Positions 28,084 through 40,369 of a stretch of DNA of 64,000 bases are shown here, in pieces. Each line of letters starts with the position of its first letter. The first letter of the stretch is position 1. The notes below the pieces were generated by a model. That model was not told the DNA's origin. It saw only the letters and a list, made by a program, of their open reading frames with translations, and searched no databases. Source of the DNA: Pseudidiomarina aestuarii (GTDB lineage Bacteria > Pseudomonadota > Gammaproteobacteria > Enterobacterales > Alteromonadaceae); contig NZ_PIPR01000002.1 in NCBI RefSeq assembly GCF_003987355.1, positions 1 through 64,000 on the forward strand, read 5' to 3'. The position numbers were made by a program, and so were the translations under genes.

Positions 28084-28746
28084 CTAGTTGTATACCCGCT
28101 CAAGACATCTATTTAGAGAATCATACTCCCAAAATTCGACATCTGATGGAATGAGATGGCTATTTGTTCGCAGATAATAACTTAGCAATGTTTCATTTCG
28201 CTTCTCAGAGAAGTCTCGAAGTACCACCATAATCTTTCGGAATTTTGCTGGCGCTGCGAGGAAGTAATACATAGCTTCATTCCAAGTGGTCATTTTGGCA
28301 CTGGGTACATTATTTCCTGAAGTCCATCGGTGTGATTTGCATTCGACTAGAATGCGTTGTTCTTCACAACCAAGGTCGAATGCGTGCCCCTTTTTGGAGC
28401 CAGCGATTCCCACTTCTACAGAGACATTTTTTTGAAGGCGCATGCCGAGGTCTGCGAAGGCTTGCAAGACAGCAGACTCGAAATCCCGACCTACATGGGC
28501 ATTCGAGATAGAGCCGATTCTTTGATGTGGCTTATCCTTTGGATCTTGACGTGGCCTCAAGCTTACTTTCTTATGCCGTTCGCAAAGCGTTGCCCAGAAT
28601 AATTCATAAGGCATTACATTTTCGTGTTTCGCCTTCCAATGTGCGTCAATACCCGTCCAACCGTCGCCCATAAATACATGACCGCAAACTGGGCAATGCT
28701 TCTCATCATTGAATGGAGTGTTTTTCTCACAGCAGAAGCAAGTCAT
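28084..28746 (-). CDS. Zinc-ribbon protein with PD-(D/E)XK nuclease-like domain
   Basis: The 220-residue protein has an N-terminal Cys-rich module with two knuckles (CFCC near residue 3 and CPVCGHVF near 18), then DAHWKAKH. The C-terminal half follows the restriction-endonuclease fold order: GRDFESAVLQAF helix, HAFDLGCEEQRILVECKSHRW with the D...ExK signature (VECKSH), and a helix with NEAMYYF. A role as a DNA nuclease in defence is inferred. AGGATAT lies 8 nt before the ATG. It sits 39 bp downstream of the membrane-protein gene on the same strand, possibly the same operon. Confidence 0.65.
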   Translation of the reverse strand: MTCFCCEKNTPFNDEKHCPVCGHVFMGDGWTGIDAHWKAKHENVMPYELFWATLCERHKKVSLRPRQDPKDKPHQRIGSISNAHVGRDFESAVLQAFADLGMRLQKNVSVEVGIAGSKKGHAFDLGCEEQRILVECKSHRWTSGNNVPSAKMTTWNEAMYYFLAAPAKFRKIMVVLRDFSEKRNETLLSYYLRTNSHLIPSDVEFWEYDSLNRCLERVYN

Positions 28747-28785: not shown

Positions 28786-29742
28786 TCATTCACTTGTCGT
28801 TTTAACTAAATTGCACTCGAGAACTACATATTTTTCGCTATTTTCAGGGCGATAAGCAAGAACGTGATTTAGTGATTTATCAAGAAAAACAACACCTTTG
28901 ACTGTACTATCAAATTGACACGGATGATGGTTATTAAAATCCAATGTTGTAGCTGTTTTCTCAACTATAGTTGATATATTGGAGCCGGCAACAACACTGA
29001 TAATCAACAGTACATAGCTGCTGATAAAAAAACTAAACTGAGTAACATGTAATTCTCGGTCAGCATCCGTATGAGCAGCTAAGTTTGTAGCTTTAACCTT
29101 AGCTGAGCTTTTGGTATTTTTTTTGAGGTTGAGACTAAGAACTGAAATTACTAGCAGCACCATTGAGAGAATTAGTGTATACGGTGCTGCGACTAACGCA
29201 ACTGCAATAGGCTTAGTGTAACTGAAATGGCTTGGGTCTATCCCAAAATGTTGATTCAAAAGAATATTAGCTTGCCCGCCAAGACTGAAGACCAATAACG
29301 TCACGATTGCCGACCAAAATAGGGCGGGCTCCCACTTTTGGTTAGAAAATCTGCGAGAAAATCTATTTATTAGTGGAGTGAATGAGCAGTACAAGCATAA
29401 AGCTCCAGCTACGACGAACATCCAGAATATGCTTTTCCAAACAATTAACAACGCTAACGACAGTGAGAAGATCGTACAGCCGATAATTCCAGAAAGCTGA
29501 TGGATCTTGTATGCGTGAAAACCTCTCTTTGCAAGCATGTATAACCAGACTGTAGTCATAACAACTATAAAGCTTGTGGCCATGTAAAATTGAATGTACT
29601 GGAGGCGTTTCAAAGTGAAGTCCTCCAATTGCCACCAATTGTGTTGAGCTACCAAGATAGTTGCTGATAAACCGATAAAAGAGATTGCTATCAGTAGTGC
29701 GGTGCTAAATAGAATTTTGCGAATCAAGTTACTATGCTCCAT
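28786..29742 (-). CDS. Polytopic membrane protein of unknown function
   Basis: The 318-residue protein has seven or eight predicted helices (about residues 9-31, 48-70, 83-104, 106-124, 142-160, 178-203, 238-258). A Lys/Ala-rich cytoplasmic loop (KKNTKSSAKVKA) precedes the last helix, and the soluble C-terminal tail (about 260-318) includes HHPCQFDSTVKGVVFLDK. I recognise no family. It is among the most AT-rich genes in the window. It diverges from the restriction operon and precedes the zinc-ribbon nuclease gene, so a membrane component of a defence pair is possible but unproven. The ribosome binding site is weak. Confidence 0.55.
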   Translation of the reverse strand: MEHSNLIRKILFSTALLIAISFIGLSATILVAQHNWWQLEDFTLKRLQYIQFYMATSFIVVMTTVWLYMLAKRGFHAYKIHQLSGIIGCTIFSLSLALLIVWKSIFWMFVVAGALCLYCSFTPLINRFSRRFSNQKWEPALFWSAIVTLLVFSLGGQANILLNQHFGIDPSHFSYTKPIAVALVAAPYTLILSMVLLVISVLSLNLKKNTKSSAKVKATNLAAHTDADRELHVTQFSFFISSYVLLIISVVAGSNISTIVEKTATTLDFNNHHPCQFDSTVKGVVFLDKSLNHVLAYRPENSEKYVVLECNLVKTTSE

Positions 29743-29893: not shown

Positions 29894-32212
29894 ATGCAGT
29901 CAGAGGCTGATACTAGGGCAAGTTATATTGACCCCGCTCTTGCGGCGGCAGATTGGAAGCCCGCGAACGTAATTCGCGAACATTATTTTACTGACGGCAG
30001 AAAGCTTGCCGGAGGTGTTCGTGGACGACGTTGCTTCGTCGATTATCTGCTTCATAAAGACAATCGCTATCTCGCCATTGTCGAGGCTAAAAAGGAGTCG
30101 GAGCATCCCACTAAAGGGCTTCAACAAGCCATAGATTATGCCAACAAACTTTTGGTGCGTTTTGTCTACTCAAGTAACGGTAAACAGACGTATGAGTTCG
30201 ACCTCGAAACGGGAAAAGGTGAGTATGTCGAGTTTTATCCGACACCTGAGGAGTTGGAGAAACGTTACGCTGGTAAAAACTCCAATCTAGGCCAAGAGCT
30301 TCGGAACGTACCTTTTCATTTAGAAGGCGCTATGCAGCCGCGATACTATCAAGAGCTTGCTGTACATGCGGCTACCGACGCAATAGGGCAAGGTAAGTCC
30401 CGAGTACTTTTGACGTTGGCTACAGGAACCGGCAAAACGTTCATCGCGTTCCAGATTGTTCACAAGCTATTTCAGTCTCGCTGGAATAAAGATGACCCGG
30501 GTTCAAGACGCCCCCGAATTTTATTCTTAGCTGATCGAAATATACTCGCTGACCAAGCAATAAATACCTTTAATCCCTACGAAAAAGATCTCATTAAAAT
30601 TAACGGAGAAGAGGTTCGTAAACGGTCAGGCGTTGTCCCAACTAATGCGCATATTTTCTTCGCGATCTATCAAGCGATTGCCGAGCGTGAAAACATTGAA
30701 GGCTATTATAAGTCATATCCAAGTGACTTTTTTGATCTCATCATGATAGATGAATGCCACCGAGGCAGCGCCAACGAGGAAGGCTCCTGGCGAGCAATTC
30801 TTGACCATTTTAGCAGTGCGGTGCATGTCGGTTTAACGGCTACCCCAAAACGTGAAGCGAACGTTGATACCTATGATTACTTCGGCAAGCCAGCGTTTGA
30901 ATATTCTCTAAAAGAAGGCATAAATGATGGCTTCTTAACGCCATACCGGGTCAAACGAATACGTACTAACCTAGATGAGCTTGTCCTGACAAAAGACGAT
31001 CAAATTCTCGAGGGTGAGTCGGGCCAAGACGTCTATGAAGTAAAAGATTATGATCGGAAAATAACCGTCGATGATAGAACAGATTTAGTCGCAAAGGCAA
31101 TCGTTGACCATATCAAGCCGCTTGATAAAACCATAGTCTTTTGCGAAGACCAGAATCATGCGCTCACGATTCGCGATATGATTAATCAGTATAAAAAAAT
31201 AAGAGACCCGCATTACTGCGTTCGAGTGACCAGCGATGAGGGAAAGGTTGGTCGGGAGCTTTTGGAGAAATTCCAAGACAACGATAAAGACATTCCAACC
31301 ATTCTCACTTCGTCACAGATGCTTACCACTGGCGTGGATGCACGTAACGTGAGGAACGTCGTTCTTGATCGTACCGTTGGGTCAATGGTTGAGTTTAAAC
31401 AAATCGTTGGTCGCGGAACCCGTGTTTTTGATGGTAAAGATTATTTCACTATTATCGATTTTCGTGGTGCGACCAATAAGTTTTATGACAAAGATTGGGA
31501 TGGCGAGCCAGAGGCTCCTGAGCCAAATGAAGCGCGTGAACCAACACCAACTCCCTACCCACCTTCAGAAGCTGACGACAGTGGTAACACATCAGATACT
31601 GAACGAAAAGAGCCCAAAACACGATTGAAGGTAAAGCTGGGCAAACACCGAGAGATTAAGGTCATTGATGTAGAGACTCGCTACATTGATGAAAACGGGA
31701 AACCTCTCACTGTACAGGAGTTTGTCGAACGCCTAATAAATCAGTTACCTGGGCTATTTAAGTCAGCTGACGAACTGAGGAGAACTTGGTCCGATCCAGA
31801 TGAACGCGAGACTTTGCTTGCGAAATTGGTGCAAGCGGGGTTCGACAAAGAGCAGTTAACTGCTCTTCGACGTATGTTTGAAGCCGAAGACTGCGACATC
31901 TTTGATTTATTAGCGTTTCTTGCTTTTGAGCAGCCCATGGAAACCAGGAAAGCACGAGCCGACAACCTACGTACTAACAGAGCTTTCTTTAGCCAATACC
32001 AGCATGAAAAAGCTCAGAAGTTTTTGCATTTTGTACTCAACCGATATGAAAAGAGCGGAAGCACAGAGCTATCTCGTGAACGGCTACCTGCGTTGATAGA
32101 ATTGTCGGGGTTGGGCACCACAAAAGATGCATCCAAAGCATTTGGCGGTAAACCAGCATACTTGCTAGCCGCTTTTAAACAATTACAGCAACAGCTTTAT
32201 GACGTGAATTAA
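29894..32212 (+). CDS. hsdR: Type I restriction enzyme, R subunit (HsdR)
   Basis: ATP-dependent translocase and nuclease of a type I restriction-modification complex, 772 residues. An N-terminal PD-(D/E)XK domain has FVDYLLHKDNRYLAIVEAKKE (D...ExK). The SF2 helicase part has Walker A LATGTGKTF, DECHRG, VGLTATP and the motif VI region QIVGRGTRV, followed by an acidic linker near 545-580 and a C-terminal domain binding the M/S core. GGAG lies 7 nt before the ATG. First gene of a seven-gene operon. The next gene starts 1 nt after its stop. Confidence 0.93.
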   Translation: MQSEADTRASYIDPALAAADWKPANVIREHYFTDGRKLAGGVRGRRCFVDYLLHKDNRYLAIVEAKKESEHPTKGLQQAIDYANKLLVRFVYSSNGKQTYEFDLETGKGEYVEFYPTPEELEKRYAGKNSNLGQELRNVPFHLEGAMQPRYYQELAVHAATDAIGQGKSRVLLTLATGTGKTFIAFQIVHKLFQSRWNKDDPGSRRPRILFLADRNILADQAINTFNPYEKDLIKINGEEVRKRSGVVPTNAHIFFAIYQAIAERENIEGYYKSYPSDFFDLIMIDECHRGSANEEGSWRAILDHFSSAVHVGLTATPKREANVDTYDYFGKPAFEYSLKEGINDGFLTPYRVKRIRTNLDELVLTKDDQILEGESGQDVYEVKDYDRKITVDDRTDLVAKAIVDHIKPLDKTIVFCEDQNHALTIRDMINQYKKIRDPHYCVRVTSDEGKVGRELLEKFQDNDKDIPTILTSSQMLTTGVDARNVRNVVLDRTVGSMVEFKQIVGRGTRVFDGKDYFTIIDFRGATNKFYDKDWDGEPEAPEPNEAREPTPTPYPPSEADDSGNTSDTERKEPKTRLKVKLGKHREIKVIDVETRYIDENGKPLTVQEFVERLINQLPGLFKSADELRRTWSDPDERETLLAKLVQAGFDKEQLTALRRMFEAEDCDIFDLLAFLAFEQPMETRKARADNLRTNRAFFSQYQHEKAQKFLHFVLNRYEKSGSTELSRERLPALIELSGLGTTKDASKAFGGKPAYLLAAFKQLQQQLYDVN

Positions 32213-32213
32213 A

Positions 32214-33995
32214 ATGGAATTAACTTTAGCCCCGAATCCACTCCACGATCAGACGCAAACTTTGACAATCGACAAAGTGGCAACGTTGATTGGTGAAAAT
32301 GGCAGCGGGAAATCAAGTATCTTACAGTCAGTCTTTGAAGATCGCATCAAAGCAGGTCGAGCTCGTGACTATCGAGTAGTCTGCTTTTCCAGTGGGCAAA
32401 ATGAGTCGTTCTCTAAAGCCTTTTCTTCGTATTTGAAGAAGTTAAAGAGAGCTGATGATGCTGAGCAGGTTTATGCGTATTTTTATGATAAATCTTGGTC
32501 CAAGATACTTATTTTCCTTGCAAGCACGTTAATGAAAACTGGTAAGGTCAGAGATTTCCTTCTCGAAAAAGGTTACACAGCGGAAAGCGAAGATGGCTAC
32601 AAAGATGATATACATTCAACTCTCTCTATTCAATTTCGCATTCAAAGCGCGTATGTGACGCAAATTCAGCAGGCACTTAAGAGAGAAGAAAAAGGTGAAA
32701 CAGACACCTTTCGTCAAACGGTATTTCATCGGAATTTAGCAAACTTTATTGAGGAGTGTATCGATGAAGAGTACGAATTCGAGGAAACCATAAGAAGTCG
32801 CACTGTGCGGCTACAATCGGGACAGATTACTCGAATACATTTCTTATCAAACCTATTTGACGACCCGACAAGAGAAGAGCCGATACCGGATGTATACAGA
32901 GAACTGCCAGCGGTTGATTTCTTTACCCAAGCAGCTAGAACAGACGATTTTATACCTAGGTCGAAAATAGGCTTAACTTTCAAAGAAGGTTTAGATTTGG
33001 ATGATTTGAGTGACGGTGAATACCAGCTCTTATTCCTATATGCATTAATCGATCTCTTTGATGCCGAAAATGCACTATTCCTTCTGGACGAAGCTGATTC
33101 GCACCTCCATTACAAGAACGTTGAAAAGCTTTGGTCCTTATTACATAGCATCCAAGGTCATGCCATTACGACAACACACTTGCTGGATTCCATTTCTGCT
33201 AAAGAAAACCGCATTGAACACCTAAAAGTTGTAGAAAATGGTCGCATCAATGAAGACAACAAAATCAAACGGCTAATTAGCCGACTCAGTGTGTTATCTC
33301 GTGCCAAATCCGTTGAGTTTGAAGTATGTGGCAAGCTGCCCAGTATTGCTTTGTTAGATGACTATAACGACTGGATTATTTTTACCAAGTTGGCAGAGCG
33401 TGCAGGCTTGGACGTAGAACGCTTATCTGATGTTCATGCCATGAAAAAGTCATCCAGCTATGCATCTGCTAGCGAGACTTTTGGTAAAGGTAAAATTGAT
33501 TGGTTACACGGCCTAAGCAAGATTGAGTCATCACTTGTAACAACAAAAGTTTTCCTGATTTGTGACAGAGATGAAGCTGCTCTCGAATGGAATGCCAATG
33601 ATGGTGTGCAGATCAATGGGCGTAGCTATCGTAAGCTACTAGCTGCAGTTCAATGGCCTCGCGGCTCGAGTGTCACACCATATTTATTAGCCTGGAAGCG
33701 CCGCGAAATTAAAAACTACTTGCTTTCATATACAGCTTTAGCGCACTACGGTGCAGTGGAACAGATCAATAACCCTGAATTGGTTAGAGCACCATACTAT
33801 CTACAAGAAAATGAACGGGGTGACAATGAAGATATTGGCCGTCTTAACGCAAAACCCGTTATAGATCCGCTGATTAACAGCGATGAAGCAGGGCTCGATT
33901 ACGAAAAACTTCAAACTTATGTCGACCTGATTCCACCTCAAGAGATCAGTGAAGACATCACAAACATGTATAATTTTATTACTGGAAAACTATAA
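32214..33995 (+). CDS. OLD-like ABC ATPase inside the type I operon
   Basis: The 593-residue protein has an SMC/OLD-type ATPase head: Walker A GENGSGKSS (near residue 28), signature LSDGEYQLLFLY, Walker B ALFLLDEADSHLH, and an H-loop in AITTTHLLDS. A C-terminal region carries FLICDRDEAALEWN, which resembles the acidic strand of a Toprim nuclease domain. The layout matches AAA_15/OLD-family proteins. Standard type I systems need only R, M and S, so this is an accessory effector or a separate module. It is 1 nt after hsdR and 3 nt before hsdM, implying co-expression. Confidence 0.75.
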   Translation: MELTLAPNPLHDQTQTLTIDKVATLIGENGSGKSSILQSVFEDRIKAGRARDYRVVCFSSGQNESFSKAFSSYLKKLKRADDAEQVYAYFYDKSWSKILIFLASTLMKTGKVRDFLLEKGYTAESEDGYKDDIHSTLSIQFRIQSAYVTQIQQALKREEKGETDTFRQTVFHRNLANFIEECIDEEYEFEETIRSRTVRLQSGQITRIHFLSNLFDDPTREEPIPDVYRELPAVDFFTQAARTDDFIPRSKIGLTFKEGLDLDDLSDGEYQLLFLYALIDLFDAENALFLLDEADSHLHYKNVEKLWSLLHSIQGHAITTTHLLDSISAKENRIEHLKVVENGRINEDNKIKRLISRLSVLSRAKSVEFEVCGKLPSIALLDDYNDWIIFTKLAERAGLDVERLSDVHAMKKSSSYASASETFGKGKIDWLHGLSKIESSLVTTKVFLICDRDEAALEWNANDGVQINGRSYRKLLAAVQWPRGSSVTPYLLAWKRREIKNYLLSYTALAHYGAVEQINNPELVRAPYYLQENERGDNEDIGRLNAKPVIDPLINSDEAGLDYEKLQTYVDLIPPQEISEDITNMYNFITGKL

Positions 33996-33998
33996 ATC

Positions 33999-35483
33999 AT
34001 GTCATTACAGCAAAAGATCGATCGTATTACCGACATATTACGTCGCGATGATGGCATCAGCGGTGCTATGCACTATACAGAGCAAACCTCATGGGTTCTG
34101 TTTTTAAAATTTCTGGATGATTATGAGTCTGAAAAAGAGGACGAGGCAGTCTTATCCGGCAAAGAGTATCAACCAGTTCTTGATTACGAGCACCGTTGGT
34201 CTAATTGGGCCTGTCCGAAAACAGACAATGGAAAACCGGATATTAATAAAGCTCGTACTGGTGATGATTTGACCAATTACGTTAATAATGAACTGTTTCC
34301 GTACTTAAAAGGATTTGCGAATGCGGCGGCGACGGGCGCAGCGGCCGACCCGAAGTCGTTTAGTTATAAAATAGGTGCCATCTTTCAGTATTTAGATAAT
34401 AAAATCGCTTCTGGTCACACGTTGCGAGAAGTGTTAGATATTGTTGATAACTTGAATTTTCAGTCAGAGACAGACCTGTTTGAACTGTCATTAGTATACG
34501 AGGGCCTTTTACAGAACATGGGCGATGCTGGAGGGTACGCGGGAGAGTTCTATACTCCCCGTCCAGTTGTCCGTGCCATGCTTCAAGTTGTTGACCCTCA
34601 GGCTGGCCAAACGATTTATGACGCTGCTGCGGGTTCTTGCGGATTCTTAGTGGAAGCCTTTGAGCACCTAAAAGCAAAGAGAAACGAGCTTTCAACTCAA
34701 GAGTGGGATTTTATTCAGCGCGATACTTTTTTTGGCTTTGAAAAGACTTCTCTAGCTTATGTTATGGGAATGATGAACATGATTTTACATGGCATCGAGT
34801 CGCCCAACCTGTTTCGTGGTAATACGCTGACTCAAAATATCCGCGATATTCAGGAAAAGGACCGTTATGACATTATTCTTGCGAATCCACCATTCGGTGG
34901 AAAAGAGAAGTCGCAAATCCAGCAAAACTTTCCTATCCAAAGCAATGCAACGGAGTTGCTGTTTTTGCAGCACTTTATGAAAACGCTGAAGAGTGGTGGT
35001 AAAGCAGCCATCATAGTCCCAGAAGGCGTACTGTTTCAAACCAACAGTGCTTTTAAACAAGTAAAACAAGAGTTGCTGGAAAATTTTAACCTGCACACCA
35101 TTTTAAGCCTGCCAGCTGGAGTATTTTTGCCGTATTCAGGCGTTAAAACCAACGTACTGTTTTTTGAGCGCAGCGGCGGTACCAGCGATGTGTGGTACTA
35201 CGAATGCGAGCCCGAGCAAAAGCTCACTAAAAACAAACCGATCACCGATGACCACCTAAAAGAGTTTGTCGAGCTGTATAGCAACCGCGAAACTACCGAA
35301 CGCTCCTGGACAATTTCAGCCAGTAAATTAGCTGAAGACTATGATCTATCTGCCAAAAACCCAGCTAAGCAAAAAGATACCGAGCACCTAGCGCCAAGCG
35401 ATATTCTCAAACAAATCCGTAATAAGGAAAAGTTGGTGTCTAGCCTCTTAGACGAAATTGAAGACCTGTTGGTGGAGAAGTAA
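33999..35483 (+). CDS. hsdM: Type I restriction-modification DNA methyltransferase (HsdM)
   Basis: N6-adenine methyltransferase of 494 residues that protects host DNA and forms the M2S core. The N-terminal helical domain (MSLQQKIDRITDILRRDDGISGAMHYTEQ) is followed by SAM motif I, DAAAGSCGFLVEAF, and catalytic motif IV NPPFGG. Spacing to the upstream ATPase gene is 3 nt and to hsdS 2 nt. Confidence 0.96.
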   Translation: MSLQQKIDRITDILRRDDGISGAMHYTEQTSWVLFLKFLDDYESEKEDEAVLSGKEYQPVLDYEHRWSNWACPKTDNGKPDINKARTGDDLTNYVNNELFPYLKGFANAAATGAAADPKSFSYKIGAIFQYLDNKIASGHTLREVLDIVDNLNFQSETDLFELSLVYEGLLQNMGDAGGYAGEFYTPRPVVRAMLQVVDPQAGQTIYDAAAGSCGFLVEAFEHLKAKRNELSTQEWDFIQRDTFFGFEKTSLAYVMGMMNMILHGIESPNLFRGNTLTQNIRDIQEKDRYDIILANPPFGGKEKSQIQQNFPIQSNATELLFLQHFMKTLKSGGKAAIIVPEGVLFQTNSAFKQVKQELLENFNLHTILSLPAGVFLPYSGVKTNVLFFERSGGTSDVWYYECEPEQKLTKNKPITDDHLKEFVELYSNRETTERSWTISASKLAEDYDLSAKNPAKQKDTEHLAPSDILKQIRNKEKLVSSLLDEIEDLLVEK

Positions 35484-35485
35484 GC

Positions 35486-36604
35486 ATGGAGCAGGTTCTA
35501 TATTCATTGCCGGATGACTGGGAATATAAGAAGCTTAAAGCACTCATAAAAATGCACTATGGCAAGGCATTGAAAGCATGTGATCGTGTTGAAGGTGAAG
35601 TGCCTGTATTTGGCTCTAATGGTGTTGTAGGAAGCCATAATGAGTGCTTGTGGTCTGAACCTACGGTTGTTATTGGTCGAAAAGGTTCAGTTGGTGAAGC
35701 AAATTTCTCTCTCACTCCTTCATGGACGATTGACACTGCGTACTATGTAGAAATTATCGACCACGACGTATTAGATCTAAAATATTTCTTTTATTTTGCA
35801 GATCGGTTCGATGCTTCGTCTATCTCCCAAAAAGGGGTTAAACCAGGTATTAACCGAAATGATTATTTGGATTTGAACCTCCCTCTGCCTCCATTCAGTG
35901 AACAAAAACGCATCGTTGAAAAACTCGATGCATTGTTCACGCGCATCGACACCGCCATAGAGCATTTGCAGGAAAACCTTGTCACATCGAAGTCGTTGTT
36001 AGCTAGTGCGTTGTTCGAGAAATTTCACCAAGAAGTTAACTCAACGCCCATTAAAGAAATTTTCAATGTTTATAACGGGCGAGCCTATAAAAAATCCGAG
36101 CTTCTTGATTCGGGAAAATACAAAGTAATACGAATTCAAAACCTTAAAGGTGGCGAAAACTACTATTACTCTGATTTAGAACTTGATGAAAGCAAATACT
36201 GCGAAAGTGGCGATTTACTTTTTTCGTGGTCAGGCACTCCTGGTACTTCTTTCGGCGCGTTTATTTGGAACGACGAAAAAGCGATTTACCATTACCACAT
36301 TTGGAAAATGGAGCCAAAAGTAGAGATAGCACCCAGATATGCTTATTGGGTACTAAAAGATATCACTGAAGAGGCAATAGCAAACGCCCGAGGCGTAGCT
36401 GGCATGCTTCATATCACTAAAGGGACAATGGAGTCATTTATTGTTTCATTACCGTCATATCAAGCCCAGCAGAAAGTTGCAAAGGAACTGGACGAACTTG
36501 CTTTGAAATCAGAGCAATTACAGACTGAAATCAGCTCAAAAATTGAATCTCTTAAGCATCTTAAAGCATCAATTCTCGATTCAGCATTTAAAGGTGAGCT
36601 CTAA
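35486..36604 (+). CDS. hsdS: Type I restriction-modification specificity subunit (HsdS)
   Basis: DNA-recognition subunit of 372 residues. Two target-recognition domains (about 1-135 and 190-320) are each followed by a conserved helical spacer, the first being LPPFSEQKRIVEKLDALFTR. Two different TRDs imply a bipartite recognition sequence that cannot be predicted by eye. It is normal in length for this subfamily. The gene ends 9 nt before the next ORF, which has its own strong GGAGG. Confidence 0.95.
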   Translation: MEQVLYSLPDDWEYKKLKALIKMHYGKALKACDRVEGEVPVFGSNGVVGSHNECLWSEPTVVIGRKGSVGEANFSLTPSWTIDTAYYVEIIDHDVLDLKYFFYFADRFDASSISQKGVKPGINRNDYLDLNLPLPPFSEQKRIVEKLDALFTRIDTAIEHLQENLVTSKSLLASALFEKFHQEVNSTPIKEIFNVYNGRAYKKSELLDSGKYKVIRIQNLKGGENYYYSDLELDESKYCESGDLLFSWSGTPGTSFGAFIWNDEKAIYHYHIWKMEPKVEIAPRYAYWVLKDITEEAIANARGVAGMLHITKGTMESFIVSLPSYQAQQKVAKELDELALKSEQLQTEISSKIESLKHLKASILDSAFKGEL

Positions 36605-36613
36605 GGAGGGAGT

Positions 36614-37741
36614 ATGAGTGGTGGTCAGACTAAAAATGCCGCGTTAACAACCGCCCTGGCCTTTCATTACCAAGTGCTGATTGGCTTGGAAAAGTGCTTT
36701 GCATTGGAAGAAGGCCAATCTATTTGGTTTGAAAAAGACGGTGATGTGAGCCTTATTTCCCCTAATACTTTAACTTCATCTCAAACGGAAGTGAAAGACT
36801 ATTCGGCAGCACTTACTGACCACCATGAAAACCTCTGGAAAACGCTTAAGAACTGGCTAGCTACCGAGTTCGATCATACCCAATATGGTGTTTTGGTACT
36901 GCATACCACACAGGCTTTTGGTTCAACAACCCAGTTGAAGGATTGGAACACTCAAACTGCTGACCAACGTTTACAAGTATTGAAAGATATTTTCTTTAGC
37001 CGTCCAGAAGATAAGAGGAATGCTGAAAATCCATCAGAAATTATCAAACTACAAAAAGCCGTGATGGCTTGTAATGAAGCTCTGCTAAAAAGTGTACTTG
37101 ATAAAGTAACCTTGTTTACCGAGGCCGATAACGCACAGGATTTAGAACAGTGTATTTTGGCTAAACCTGTAGGCATTCCTAAGAATAATTTAAGTAGTTA
37201 CCTCCAGGGGTTAGTTGGTTTTGTGTATGCACAGGCAACGCAGCATTCATGGAGTATTAGCCAGCAGGCTTTTAAGGCTAAGTGTGAAGAGTTAACAGCT
37301 CTTTTATGTAAAAGGGAATTTACTTTCCCAGTATTCTCAGGCTATGAAGCATCAGATCTTGAGGTCGAACTACATCAAGATAAACTTTTTGTTCAAAAAA
37401 TAGCTGAGATAGAGCATCACGCAATGATCCCCGATGCCATAGGTAATTGGCTAGAGTTGCAAAACTCATTTATAGAACAGCTTGATGAATACCCCTTGTA
37501 TAAAGATAAAACGGTAACTTATCAAAATCAATTGGTAAAAAAATACAAGCTTTCGTATTCAAGTGCTCAACTTGAGTCGGTTGATGCAATTAAAAGCTCA
37601 AAGTTACTTTACAACAAGACCATGCAAGAGCAGCCACTCAACATGGGTAATGATATTCCGCCAATTGAATATAAAAATGGCCTTATCCATGACGCAATGG
37701 ACGATGACGAGCGTGATTTGAAATGGAAGGTTGAGCCATGA
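36614..37741 (+). CDS. Cap4-like PD-(D/E)XK nuclease effector of an ABC-3C/Lamassu-like system
   Basis: The 375-residue protein's N-terminus follows the Cap4/DUF4297 nuclease pattern: a GLEKCFAL helix, SIWFEKDGDVSLI (Glu and Asp), SSQTEVKDYSAALTDHHENLWKTLKNW with the ExK pair in TEVKD. The remaining 270 or so residues are helical and unrecognised. A dsDNA nuclease role is inferred from this motif order. It is preceded by a near-perfect ribosome binding site (TAAGGAGGGAG) and overlaps the next gene by 4 nt (ATGA), the start of a coupled three-gene module. Confidence 0.65.
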   Translation: MSGGQTKNAALTTALAFHYQVLIGLEKCFALEEGQSIWFEKDGDVSLISPNTLTSSQTEVKDYSAALTDHHENLWKTLKNWLATEFDHTQYGVLVLHTTQAFGSTTQLKDWNTQTADQRLQVLKDIFFSRPEDKRNAENPSEIIKLQKAVMACNEALLKSVLDKVTLFTEADNAQDLEQCILAKPVGIPKNNLSSYLQGLVGFVYAQATQHSWSISQQAFKAKCEELTALLCKREFTFPVFSGYEASDLEVELHQDKLFVQKIAEIEHHAMIPDAIGNWLELQNSFIEQLDEYPLYKDKTVTYQNQLVKKYKLSYSSAQLESVDAIKSSKLLYNKTMQEQPLNMGNDIPPIEYKNGLIHDAMDDDERDLKWKVEP

Positions 37742-38190
37742 GTAGCATTATCGACGCTCTATATGAATTAAAGTACAACCCATATGAGTATGGGCCATAC
37801 TTGGCTTCTTTTTATACGGCCTTAAAGGAATCCGAGAACAATTTGTTGCTTGCCCAGTTGGTCATACCGCTTTGTAGCCATCCGATATACAGCCATAAGT
37901 TGTTAAACTCGAACAAGCGAAGCTCTATCTGGTCTGTATTTGACGACAGAACAAAACTCTATGACCTACAAGAGCGGATTGATGGGTTTCAAACCCTAAC
38001 AGAGCAGTGTATTCAATATTGTTTAGTCAACGACTGGTTATTCGTTAATGAGCAGCGGCTATGCCTAACGAAATGTGATGAGGCTGTCTCCGGCTTTATC
38101 ACTAAAAAGAGTGCAGAAAGGTTAGGCCAGTTATTTAGTGGTCACTCAGTGGTCGAGATTTATGCGTTTTTAGGAGTGAAACCGCGATGA
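37738..38190 (+). CDS. ABC-3C middle component-like small protein
   Basis: A 150-residue, mostly helical protein beginning MSSIIDALYELKYNPYEYGPYL and ending in a probable small winged helix (AERLGQLFSGHSVVEIYAFLGV). Its size, position between the effector and a DUF3732 ATPase, and ATGA overlaps on both sides match the middle component (LmuC-like) of ABC-three-component systems. Sequence motifs alone are weak; the call rests largely on context. It probably bridges the ATPase and the nuclease. Confidence 0.6.
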   Translation: MSSIIDALYELKYNPYEYGPYLASFYTALKESENNLLLAQLVIPLCSHPIYSHKLLNSNKRSSIWSVFDDRTKLYDLQERIDGFQTLTEQCIQYCLVNDWLFVNEQRLCLTKCDEAVSGFITKKSAERLGQLFSGHSVVEIYAFLGVKPR

Positions 38191-40205
38191 AAACACTTAT
38201 TCATGAAATAGGCGTGATTGACCAGCAAGGTCTTAAACACCCTGTTAATTTTCAAGCTGGGCTCAATGTGGTTACCGGTAAATCATCAACCGGTAAAAGT
38301 GCCTTAATTGAAATTTTTGATTATTGCTTTGGCAGCGATGAGAACACCATTCCAAAAGGTGTGATTACAAACAGTGCTGCAATTTACTATGTTGCGCTTG
38401 CTGTTGATGAACAAGATATGGTGATTGCCAGAGACCCCAATCTTGCAACAAAAGCATTTTTCCGTCGTGTTGACGCATTCGATTCGGAAGAGATTGATCG
38501 CGAATATTTTAGTTCTAGCTATTTTCGTCCGTTAAACGAGTTTAAGAAGCATTTAAGAGACTTTTTCCTAGATATTGATGATGTTGACGAATCTTTAGCC
38601 GCGAGAGCTAACAGGAGATTTAATCAAAAAGCACCTACACCATCGGTGCGTAGTTTTACATCTTTTATGCTTCAGCATCAAAACTTGGTTGCCAATAAGC
38701 ATGCGTTGTTTTATCGATTCGATGAAAAGGAAAAACGCGATCAGGCAATTGAACATACAAAGATATTTTTAGGACTTGTCGATCAAAAGTTCTTTCACTT
38801 ATCACAAGAAAAAGAGCGGTTAAGCACAGATGTAAAACGTTTAGAACGGCAAAAAGAAACCAATAAACGCACATCAGAAAGCTACAAACAAAAAGTCGCC
38901 CCTGTGTTAAGTCAGCTTTACGCTTTAATGGGTTTTAAAGATGAGCCTATATCTCTGACAAAGGTGCTCCAGCATCCTCAAGATGCAAAGGATCAGCTAG
39001 ATAGCATCATAGTTGCCGAGAAAATCGTTCACAGTTCCGATGCTATGACACAACGGTATGAGCAGTTGAAACTGGCGCGCAATCAAAAAACTTCTGAGTT
39101 ACGAAAGTTGCAGCGTCAAGCTGCATCTATTAATAAACACATCCAGGAAGAAGAGCTATTTGTTGAGAATGTAAAACGCTTTAACTCACCTCAGAATGTT
39201 CATATTTCCGCCACGGTTTGCCCATTCTGCCATACCGAAAAAGACAACTTGCGACAAAGTGCAGAGAAGCTTCAGCAGGCCATTACGAAAGTATCGGGGA
39301 ACCTTGCTCAAGCTCGTCCTATGAAAGCAAAGTTTCAATCATCTTTAATTGAAGTACAGCGTGATACAGAGATTGTTAGTAAGTTGCTAACCGATCTCAA
39401 TCAACAAATAGCTGAAATTGAGAAAGTAAATCAGCAGTTAGCCGAACAGAAGAGCTTGTATGAGAGCATTATAATGCAAAAAGCCAAGCTGTTTGCACTT
39501 CTTGATACCTTAAATATGGCTGATGATGCTGAACTTGATGGAGAAATCAAAAAGTTAAAGAGGAAGCTCAAGAAGATTACTGATGCACTAAAAGAATACG
39601 ATGTGCAAAAAGGTTTGGCAGCTGCATCGCTTAAGGTAAACGAATATATGGCCAGCATAGGTAGCCATTTTGAATTTGAGGCAAGCTATAAACCAGTTAA
39701 CCTCCATTTCTCATTTGAGACATTCGACCTTTATCATTTAACGCCCGAAAACGAAAAAATCTACCTTCGTTCAATGGGTAGCGGCGCAAACTGGCTTTAT
39801 TGTCATATAACGTTATTTTTGGCTTTGCATAAGTATTTCGTTGAGCTAGGTAGTAAATGCGCTATCCCTTCCATACTATTTTTGGACCAGCCGACTCAGG
39901 TGTACTTCCCTAATTTTAACCGCGATATTTCTGCTAGTTTTGACGAACAAAAGAGTCAGGAAGCAGCACAAAGGGTTGGAAATGAGCGGTCTATTGACGA
40001 AGATATCAAAGCTGTTGAAAACTTGTTCAGTAGACTGTCAATTTACTGTGAGGAGCTGCAAAGTAAATACGGCTTTAGCCCTCAGTTAATAGTTACTGAT
40101 CACGCAGATAACCTTTCTCTGTCAAACGGTGTTAAGTTTGAGTCGTTAGTTAATGGTAACCGCTGGAGAAGTCGAGGCTTGATTAACCCAGTGCCATACA
40201 GATAG
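38187..40205 (+). CDS. DUF3732/Rad50-like ABC ATPase with CxxC hook
   Basis: The 672-residue protein has Walker A TGKSSTGKSALIEIFDYCFGS near residue 31, typical of DUF3732. Two long coiled coils (about 205-335 and 360-490) flank VCPFCHTEKDN near 343, a CxxC that resembles the Rad50 zinc hook. The C-terminal half head has signature MGSGANWLYCH and Walker B ILFLDQPTQVYFP. As in Rad50/LmuB, it may sense DNA ends or foreign DNA and activate the nuclease encoded two genes upstream. Last gene of the operon; the island boundary follows 114 nt later. Confidence 0.8.
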   Translation: MKTLIHEIGVIDQQGLKHPVNFQAGLNVVTGKSSTGKSALIEIFDYCFGSDENTIPKGVITNSAAIYYVALAVDEQDMVIARDPNLATKAFFRRVDAFDSEEIDREYFSSSYFRPLNEFKKHLRDFFLDIDDVDESLAARANRRFNQKAPTPSVRSFTSFMLQHQNLVANKHALFYRFDEKEKRDQAIEHTKIFLGLVDQKFFHLSQEKERLSTDVKRLERQKETNKRTSESYKQKVAPVLSQLYALMGFKDEPISLTKVLQHPQDAKDQLDSIIVAEKIVHSSDAMTQRYEQLKLARNQKTSELRKLQRQAASINKHIQEEELFVENVKRFNSPQNVHISATVCPFCHTEKDNLRQSAEKLQQAITKVSGNLAQARPMKAKFQSSLIEVQRDTEIVSKLLTDLNQQIAEIEKVNQQLAEQKSLYESIIMQKAKLFALLDTLNMADDAELDGEIKKLKRKLKKITDALKEYDVQKGLAAASLKVNEYMASIGSHFEFEASYKPVNLHFSFETFDLYHLTPENEKIYLRSMGSGANWLYCHITLFLALHKYFVELGSKCAIPSILFLDQPTQVYFPNFNRDISASFDEQKSQEAAQRVGNERSIDEDIKAVENLFSRLSIYCEELQSKYGFSPQLIVTDHADNLSLSNGVKFESLVNGNRWRSRGLINPVPYR

Positions 40206-40341: not shown

Positions 40342-40369
40342 GCTTATAACCCAACCCGAGAGGAAAAAT

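Follow-up and report, generated by a model that had tools for sequence, protein, structure and literature searches.

Type II Lamassu (DdmABC, ABC three-component or ABC-3C) systems of Vibrio cholerae and Salmonella consist of LmuA, LmuC and LmuB: a Cap4-like effector, an MC3 middle component and a DUF3732 ATPase with a CPxC hook and a glutamine (Q) in its Walker B motif. Here we analyze a 64,000-nt stretch of DNA from Pseudidiomarina aestuarii (contig NZ_PIPR01000002.1, positions 1 to 64,000; hereafter the window), in which a triad of the same composition lies at 36614-40205. Unlike the known Lamassu systems, this triad forms the 3' part of a type I restriction-modification operon and starts 9 nt after hsdS, a gap too short to contain a promoter. 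Our results suggest that it is probably a complete type II Lamassu system and occupies, at the 3' end of a mobile type I operon, a slot whose payload can be exchanged.

Defense genes embedded in type I operons have already been published, namely TgvAB, DarTG2 and PrrC (statements attributed to papers by PMC identifier refer to excerpts of those papers). DarTG2 with RptR, in a type I operon of enteropathogenic Escherichia coli, resembles the window in being a defense module directly after hsdS (PMC12255303). Its authors propose that the hsdS-hsdR site may be a recombination hotspot and report another gene pair there in four genomes (PMC12255303). DarTG2, however, lies between hsdS and hsdR, whereas the window operon runs hsdR-AAA-hsdM-hsdS with an open 3' end, and in its relatives four families share one fixed junction. 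TgvAB, in the type I operon of V. cholerae VPI-2 (Vibrio pathogenicity island 2), is likewise a second defense system inside a type I operon (PMC11411939), but it is a type IV GmrSD-like enzyme and not Lamassu. PrrC (EcoprrI) and RloC also join an ABC or Rad50-like ATPase and a suicide effector to type I genes; unlike the window system they use an anticodon nuclease rather than a DNA nuclease, and PrrC is silenced by Hsd proteins (PMC3874168). PrrC is "invariably linked" to type Ic loci, RloC "only rarely" to restriction-modification (PMC3874168). A PrrC-type anticodon nuclease was considered for the window payload and rejected, the payload being LmuABC; only two (L042, L043) of the 24 related operons compared below carry an RloC-like gene. 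The excerpts returned by a literature search, which lay mostly outside subscription papers and preprints, contained no account of Lamassu following hsdS or of this set of payloads.

A Lamassu triad directly downstream of hsdS

The features of the operon are as follows (values after model and structure names are E-values unless stated otherwise; aa, amino acids).

29894..32212, + strand: hsdR, 772 aa, EcoAI/FtnUII-type; NCBIfam NF046051 at 903 bits (equivalog cut-off 550), Pfam ResIII and EcoEI_R_C
32214..33995, + strand: AAA ATPase of unclear family, 593 aa; Pfam SMC_N 4.8e-11 and AAA_21 1.7e-9, PADLOC mad3 5.4e-14
33999..35483, + strand: hsdM, 494 aa; Pfam N6_Mtase 7.6e-63, PADLOC MTase_I 2.6e-171
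35486..36604, + strand: hsdS, 372 aa, two Methylase_S stretches; Pfam Methylase_S 1.4e-40
36602..36616, + strand: slot junction, hsdS stop TAA, GGAGGGAGT (Shine-Dalgarno-like) and payload ATG; same 15 bases in 17 of 24 operons
36614..37741, + strand: lmuA, 375 aa, Cap4-like PD-(D/E)XK effector; PADLOC LmuA 6.2e-41, Foldseek 9hr5
36743..36796, + strand: predicted LmuA catalytic residues D44 ... E59-x-K61, from their invariance in alignments
37738..38190, + strand: lmuC, 150 aa, ABC-3C middle component 3; Pfam MC3 8.9e-43, PADLOC LmuC 2e-18
38187..40205, + strand: lmuB, 672 aa, DUF3732 Rad50/SMC-like ATPase; PADLOC LmuB 2.1e-117, PDB 9hqu_A 1.6e-37

All genes lie on the + strand in the order hsdR-AAA-hsdM-hsdS-lmuA-lmuC-lmuB. 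An AAA gene between hsdR and hsdM, unmentioned in the preliminary description of this DNA, brings the operon to seven genes. HsdR, HsdM and HsdS are all present by profile matches, the EcoAI-type family name being taken from HsdR (NF046051), and active methylation and restriction by HsdRMS are predicted from the open frames. The hsdS stop (36602-36604) is followed by the nine bases GGAGGGAGT and then the lmuA ATG, and ATGA overlaps join lmuA to lmuC (37738-37741) and lmuC to lmuB (38187-38190). The gene starts, lengths, overlaps and 9-nt gap given in that description are exact.

By profile comparison and a structural model, the triad is a Lamassu/ABC-3C system of type II with a putative Cap4-like effector, as had been proposed. 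The three PADLOC models, for LmuA (6.2e-41), LmuC (2e-18) and LmuB (2.1e-117), all matched far beyond chance. The lmuB product also matches Pfam DUF3732 (5e-54) and the solved Lamassu ATPases 9hqu, 9ny5 and 9uxl (1.6e-37 to 1.4e-33). Aligned to 9hqu_A, it shows the Walker A motif GKSSTGKS, the zinc-hook-like VCPFC (CPxC) noted before, GSGANWL (GSGxNWL) and a Walker B motif, LDQP, with Q in place of E, a feature described as general for LmuB (PMC10586767). LmuC is identified as the middle component by Pfam MC3 and PADLOC; no credible PDB sequence match was found for it among solved structures.

LmuA has no Pfam match of note, and by sequence alone it matches a solved LmuA in the PDB weakly (0.031). 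An AlphaFold2 model built from 27 sequences (pLDDT 74, pTM 0.57; poor from about residue 230 onward) has as its best Foldseek match the Lamassu LmuA 9hr5 (4.6e-10, TM 0.55), and Cap4 appears from rank 12 on (6vm5, 3.2e-5). The model thus points to an effector domain with a Cap4/REase fold, in line with the original assignment of the first protein. The TEVKD motif already pointed out spans LmuA residues 58-62. Two alignments, of 26 and 27 sequences, show no variation at D44, E59 and K61, the invariance of D44 being partly built in because the loci of the 27-sequence alignment were found with a pattern containing it. Among 38 loci with all three genes, the D-ExK pattern occurs in 37, the CPxC hook in 37 and GSGxNWL in 34. 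LDQP or LDEP was sought only as an exact match and occurs in 25 of the 38, always with Q; some of the other 13 loci are truncated at the end of a contig. For other Lamassu systems, defense against phages or plasmids is reported, with the effector being liberated and activated LmuA forming a tetramer (PMC12409362, addendum).

The triad at L012 (1854-5463) has an LmuA 80% identical to that of the window and an LmuC and LmuB 95-96% identical. At L029, L031, L034, L035, L037 and L039, identity to the window proteins is 52-59% for LmuA versus 77-85% for LmuB. The effector may thus be exchanged within Lamassu as well.

One fixed junction carries several defense families

We compared the window operon with 23 others whose HsdM is at least 83.8% identical to its own. 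In this sample of 24, the window and eight operons from an LmuA search over-represent Lamassu, while 15 came from HsdM searches; the HsdM family draws were centered on genomes of LmuA loci, and one re-found the genome of L042. As far as the available DNA reaches, all 24 have the order hsdR-AAA-hsdM-hsdS, with one extra gene (YhcG-type PDDEXK) between hsdR and AAA in L042. L091 and L096 are cut by a stretch or contig end; in L089 hsdR is split into two frames, and in L092 the contig begins within hsdR.

What follows hsdS differs among the 24. LmuABC is found in seven and an lmuA stub with an RloC-like gene in two; Shedu with a GHKL-like gene in three and the GHKL-like gene alone in five (two cut by the stretch end); SIR2 with HerA in three, SIR2 with a HerA fragment in one (L072) and a decayed SIR2 start in three. 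Four families (lmuA, Shedu, GHKL-like and SIR2) start at the same junction, and the fifth (RloC-like) lies behind an lmuA stub. Families were assigned by profile search for L042 (RloC-like), L069 (Shedu, GHKL), L070 (GHKL), L095 (SIR2, HerA) and L088 (HerA); other intact copies were assigned by 77-99% protein identity and decayed ones by DNA similarity of the first 230 nt. Because the same spot holds different defense genes across related operons, it resembles a slot in which a second defense can be interchanged; judged by gene content, Lamassu is one of its several cargoes. This pattern is sharper and more general than the linkage reported in the preliminary description.

The boundary of the slot is narrow. 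hsdS mostly ends in SILDSAFKGEL, and the 15 bases TAA-GGAGGGAGT-ATG are identical in 17 of the 24 operons, the rest being near variants. The 9-nt spacer contains the Shine-Dalgarno-like GGAGGGAG. The furthest variant is L069 (TAG-GGAGATAGG-ATG), and L092 has lost the start codon, with AAG instead of ATG. At positions 0 to +12, 22-24 of the 24 operons agree with the majority; over the next twelve positions, 9-16 do. Where the first payload genes of two operons differ, similarity breaks off at +8 to +13 from the hsdS stop, at a resolution of about 6 nt, in 186 of 206 pairs; L069, with its divergent junction, is a member of each of the remaining 20. In L004/L094 a 6.8-kb match at 86.6% identity stops at +12, as does a 6.9-kb match at 80.1% in L090/L091. 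DNA similarity between such operons stops at the payload start codon.

Within the operons, median identities are 94% for HsdR, 91% for HsdM, 50% for the AAA protein (pairwise among 23 operons) and 30% for HsdS. As aligned, the chassis of hsdR and hsdM is conserved, hsdS and the genes that follow it vary, and the AAA gene is itself a variable module.

With HsdM as bait, 3372 plasmid records match, four above 90% identity and the rest below 60%. The four close plasmid operons carry, 9 nt after hsdS, Shedu plus a 672-aa ATP-binding protein (L069), the 672-aa protein alone (L070), a short stub (L071) and a SIR2 protein (L072), and none of the four carries Lamassu. A search of 369 class members gave 25 matches at 1e-100: one close (the window's own genome), two at 61-62% and 22 at 47-50%. 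In family and order draws taken around linked genomes, with centers and repeats counted, close matches occur in 7 of 294, 3 of 296, 1 of 249, 3 of 163, 2 of 146, 1 of 21 and 3 of 394 genomes. HsdM relatives in phage records are below 60% identity, E. coli genomes hold one 66.9% piece of hsdM, and IMG/VR viral contigs gave no HsdM relative.

The 672-aa GHKL-like protein (L070:14697-16715, L069:16082-18100) shows weak GHKL/HATPase similarity (0.022) and, near its C-terminus, a VEIKR motif that by eye is PD-(D/E)XK-like. Neither PADLOC nor NCBIfam has a model that matches it, and none of its Pfam matches is significant. Relatives occur in 38 plasmid records (L069 and L070 included) and in many Gammaproteobacteria. 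E. coli genomes gave no DNA match to the gene at 1e-50, yet an 89% identical database protein is named E. coli. It is possibly an undescribed defense protein. Among solved structures, the RloC-like and GHKL-like proteins have no credible match, and the AAA protein matches only a piece of UvrA, weakly.

Payload replacement on the chassis tree

We placed the payloads on a tree of HsdR plus HsdM from 23 operons (without L012, whose hsdM is partial). The payload needs 11 changes, against a minimum of 4; if only the branches starred in the tree are counted, SIR2, Lamassu, GHKL and Shedu each still require at least two. L005, which carries Lamassu, is the sister of L096, which carries GHKL, with support 100/99. 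On this tree, then, the payloads have been replaced more than once.

L042 and L043 preserve traces of replacement in their DNA. Of lmuA, both retain the initial 229 nt, with 97% and 95% identity over 76 residues, and the stub runs into an 801-aa RloC-like gene that overlaps the end of the stub frame. Because this gene sits behind the stub, RloC does not start at the junction itself. The L042 protein matches AAA_13 (PF13166, 3.8e-124) and the PDC-S06 and PrrC models and has a CAFC hook in its sequence; it is 85% identical to proteins named "Translation-disabling ACNase RloC" (P0162, P0163), and the L043 copy is 82% identical to the L042 protein. The AAA_13 ATPase, the zinc hook and the RloC-named relatives identify the L042 payload as RloC-like, and its identity to this protein does so for the L043 payload. 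The putative catalytic triad of the L042 protein was judged by eye.

Several points caution against too firm a reading of repeated exchange on a stable chassis. In the chassis tree, 12 of 20 inner branches have support below 80; recombination may also affect hsdR and hsdM; and the payload labels are somewhat clustered, 7 of 200 shuffles being as low as 11 changes. The operons carrying LmuABC may, moreover, descend from one capture. In an LmuB+LmuC tree (without L009, L024, L033, L038, L040, L042 and L043) the seven hsd-linked rows form one group in 0 of 200 bootstrap trees, but a single LmuABC clade was not rejected by the AU (approximately unbiased) test (p-AU 0.38), and we do not claim independent double capture of LmuABC.

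In L071, L092 and L094 the decayed SIR2 starts resemble intact copies for about 230 nt, a length close to that of the 229-nt lmuA stubs, and beyond this point the three have a sequence in common.

Distribution of the triad and of hsdS-linked defense genes

The hsdS-lmuA junction is real and recurrent. A search of genome contigs with the LmuA alignment gave 41 loci. The preliminary description had suggested looking for the same junction in other genomes, and six were found (L003, L004, L005, L011, L012 and L036), with the same hsd genes before a complete triad at the same 9-nt spacing; in L012, where the contig starts, only the end of hsdM and hsdS are visible. In L042 and L043 the hsd genes precede the lmuA stub. 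The hosts of five of the six linked loci belong to five families: Ferrimonadaceae, Spongiibacteraceae, Marinobacteraceae, Moraxellaceae and Alteromonadaceae. In the window's genus, LmuA was found only in the window's own genome of 26; phages and plasmids gave one LmuA relative each, at 28%.

The linkage is nevertheless far from obligatory. Half of the outcome that the preliminary description had named as counting against its proposal was thus observed, the triad lying mostly away from such systems. In 33 of the 41 loci no HsdR, HsdM or HsdS of this type lies beside lmuA, as judged by phmmer with the window's proteins over 0.25 to 10 kb of upstream DNA. A Pfam scan of nine upstream neighbors of stand-alone triads found Methylase_S in none of the nine, two of which are without a family. 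The nearest frame of at least 80 aa ends more than 100 nt before lmuA in 26 of 32 measurable unlinked loci. L021, with a 10-nt gap from an open frame to lmuA, was considered as an hsdS junction and set aside, as WD40-like and Phage_GPD genes precede it rather than hsdS. Lamassu can exist without this operon and the triad lives mostly elsewhere, so that a bond between the triad and type I systems in general is rejected. From the side of the operon, Lamassu occurs in 0 of the 15 HsdM-drawn operons, while the eight LmuA-drawn loci have Lamassu or a stub, as they must. The proposal that the fusion is more than clustering survives in part: position and junction speak for it, while other defense genes occupy the slot as tightly.

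L003, L004 and L036, from three genera, share two same-size genes at the same distance after lmuB and a 589-aa gene before hsdR, so a larger mobile block may be shared. The flanking genes of L003 were scanned as DUF3800/PDC-M04A, PDC-M04B and DUF927.

More distant type I operons were compared by gene content and not by a fixed junction. The sample comprised 21 operons with HsdM at 45-61% identity, 18 of which have hsdR downstream of hsdM (all but L097, L098 and L104), and several carry genes between hsdS and hsdR. Ten of 28 unlabeled genes between hsdM and hsdR, mostly the longer ones, were scanned (a 330-aa frame of L103 and a 382-aa frame of L110 were left out). All ten matched defense or candidate-defense models: four AAA_13/PDC-S06, two RhuM, one RhuM-Fic, two Fic and one AbiD-like. 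In 4 of the 18 operons the gene after hsdS is an AAA_13 Rad50-like relative of RloC/PrrC. Judged by these ten, the genes beside hsdS are often a second defense in other type I lineages too.

Proposed mechanistic model

We then propose a model for the window operon, in which the payload would be co-expressed with the restriction genes. HsdRMS would restrict unmodified DNA as a first layer. If this layer fails or is bypassed, LmuBC may sense abnormal DNA such as ends or hairpins and release LmuA, whose nuclease would degrade DNA and stop or kill the cell. In its simplest form the second layer would be autonomous, merely co-expressed and co-inherited; triggering by ends made by HsdR would be possible but not required.

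It is tempting to speculate that the two layers are coupled, with HsdR breaks or translocation intermediates loading LmuBC and freeing LmuA and the slot being selected for sensors of ends and breaks. A review describes Shedu as sensing DNA ends and Lamassu as responding to DNA structure and, judging from structural work, to ends as well (PMC12904381); double-strand breaks activate RloC (PMC3874168), and the AAA_13 relatives after hsdS in 4 of 18 distant operons belong to the same kind. The idea fits three of the five payload kinds, leaving SIR2-HerA and the GHKL-like protein aside, and a preference for such sensors could reflect which systems are common. Lamassu triads occur without adjoining hsd genes, as does a GHKL-like relative on an Acinetobacter plasmid, and Shedu is described as a single-protein system (PMC12409362). 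For TgvAB, an HsdR mutant left the protection by the embedded system similar (PMC11411939). We regard coupling as possible, if rather unlikely. A bolder version holds that the fixed junction is a payload bay in which hsdS and a suicide effector are both swapped, selected for readers of DNA ends, so that HsdR cutting arms a response of the whole cell. Restriction would then license abortive infection, with Lamassu, RloC, Shedu, SIR2-HerA and the GHKL-like protein as interchangeable warheads. This version seems doubtful to us.

Clustering could instead be passive, the 3' end of the operon offering a safe landing place to payloads that neither need nor benefit from the hsd genes. Defense genes cluster generally (PMC11411939), and the decayed SIR2 stubs in three loci, the HerA fragment of L072 and the lost start codon at the L092 junction would all suit such a landing place. 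Random landing would not, however, repeatedly place the boundary at the start codon of the payload and preserve the ribosome-binding-like sequence, which makes this explanation unlikely. An anti-restriction alarm, in which HsdMS or HsdR keeps the payload silent until a phage anti-restriction protein frees it, has a precedent in PrrC of the type Ic hsd locus (PMC3874168) and would suit the conserved tight hsdS-payload linkage, but it is highly unlikely, because the payload families are different proteins that would hardly all dock on the Hsd complex, the same triads also occur by themselves and Lamassu has its own sensor in LmuB.

A Lamassu system in an exchangeable slot bears on the question of why defense systems cluster, for which joint transfer, joint control and cooperation are the candidate reasons. 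Several payload families starting at one ribosome-binding-like junction, in a fixed slot of a single conserved chassis, amount to a natural swap experiment. The payload can be exchanged with the rest held constant, and triggering of DNA-end sensors by restriction breaks becomes directly testable. The 3' end of hsdS also provides a short DNA signature for finding unknown defense genes, for example that of the 672-aa GHKL-like protein.

Genomic surroundings

Between about 28 and 40 kb the GC content is 0.40-0.45. It is 0.50-0.54 over 8 kb on the left of this segment and 0.45-0.48 over 10 kb on the right; given the latter value, the contrast is mainly one-sided. yicC and a DUF885 gene flank the segment. 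Of five congener stretches, one (L136) contains both of these genes; there they are about 4 kb apart with other genes between, and nothing matches the hsd genes. On the right, the acquired segment ends somewhere from the lmuB stop to about 40633. L135 shares 44 nt with the window at 40367, but this match is 6 kb away from the DUF885 gene of L135 and leaves the border within that range.

A promoter scan found 14 sites versus 25.5 expected in shuffles. Terminator-like sites numbered 24 versus 11.8 expected, and on the + strand two fall inside hsdS (36229) and lmuC (37792).

Two genes on the - strand lie divergently upstream of hsdR. One (28786-29742) encodes a 318-aa protein without a convincing family, and the other (28084-28746) a 220-aa protein with a very weak match to Mrr_cat (0.077).

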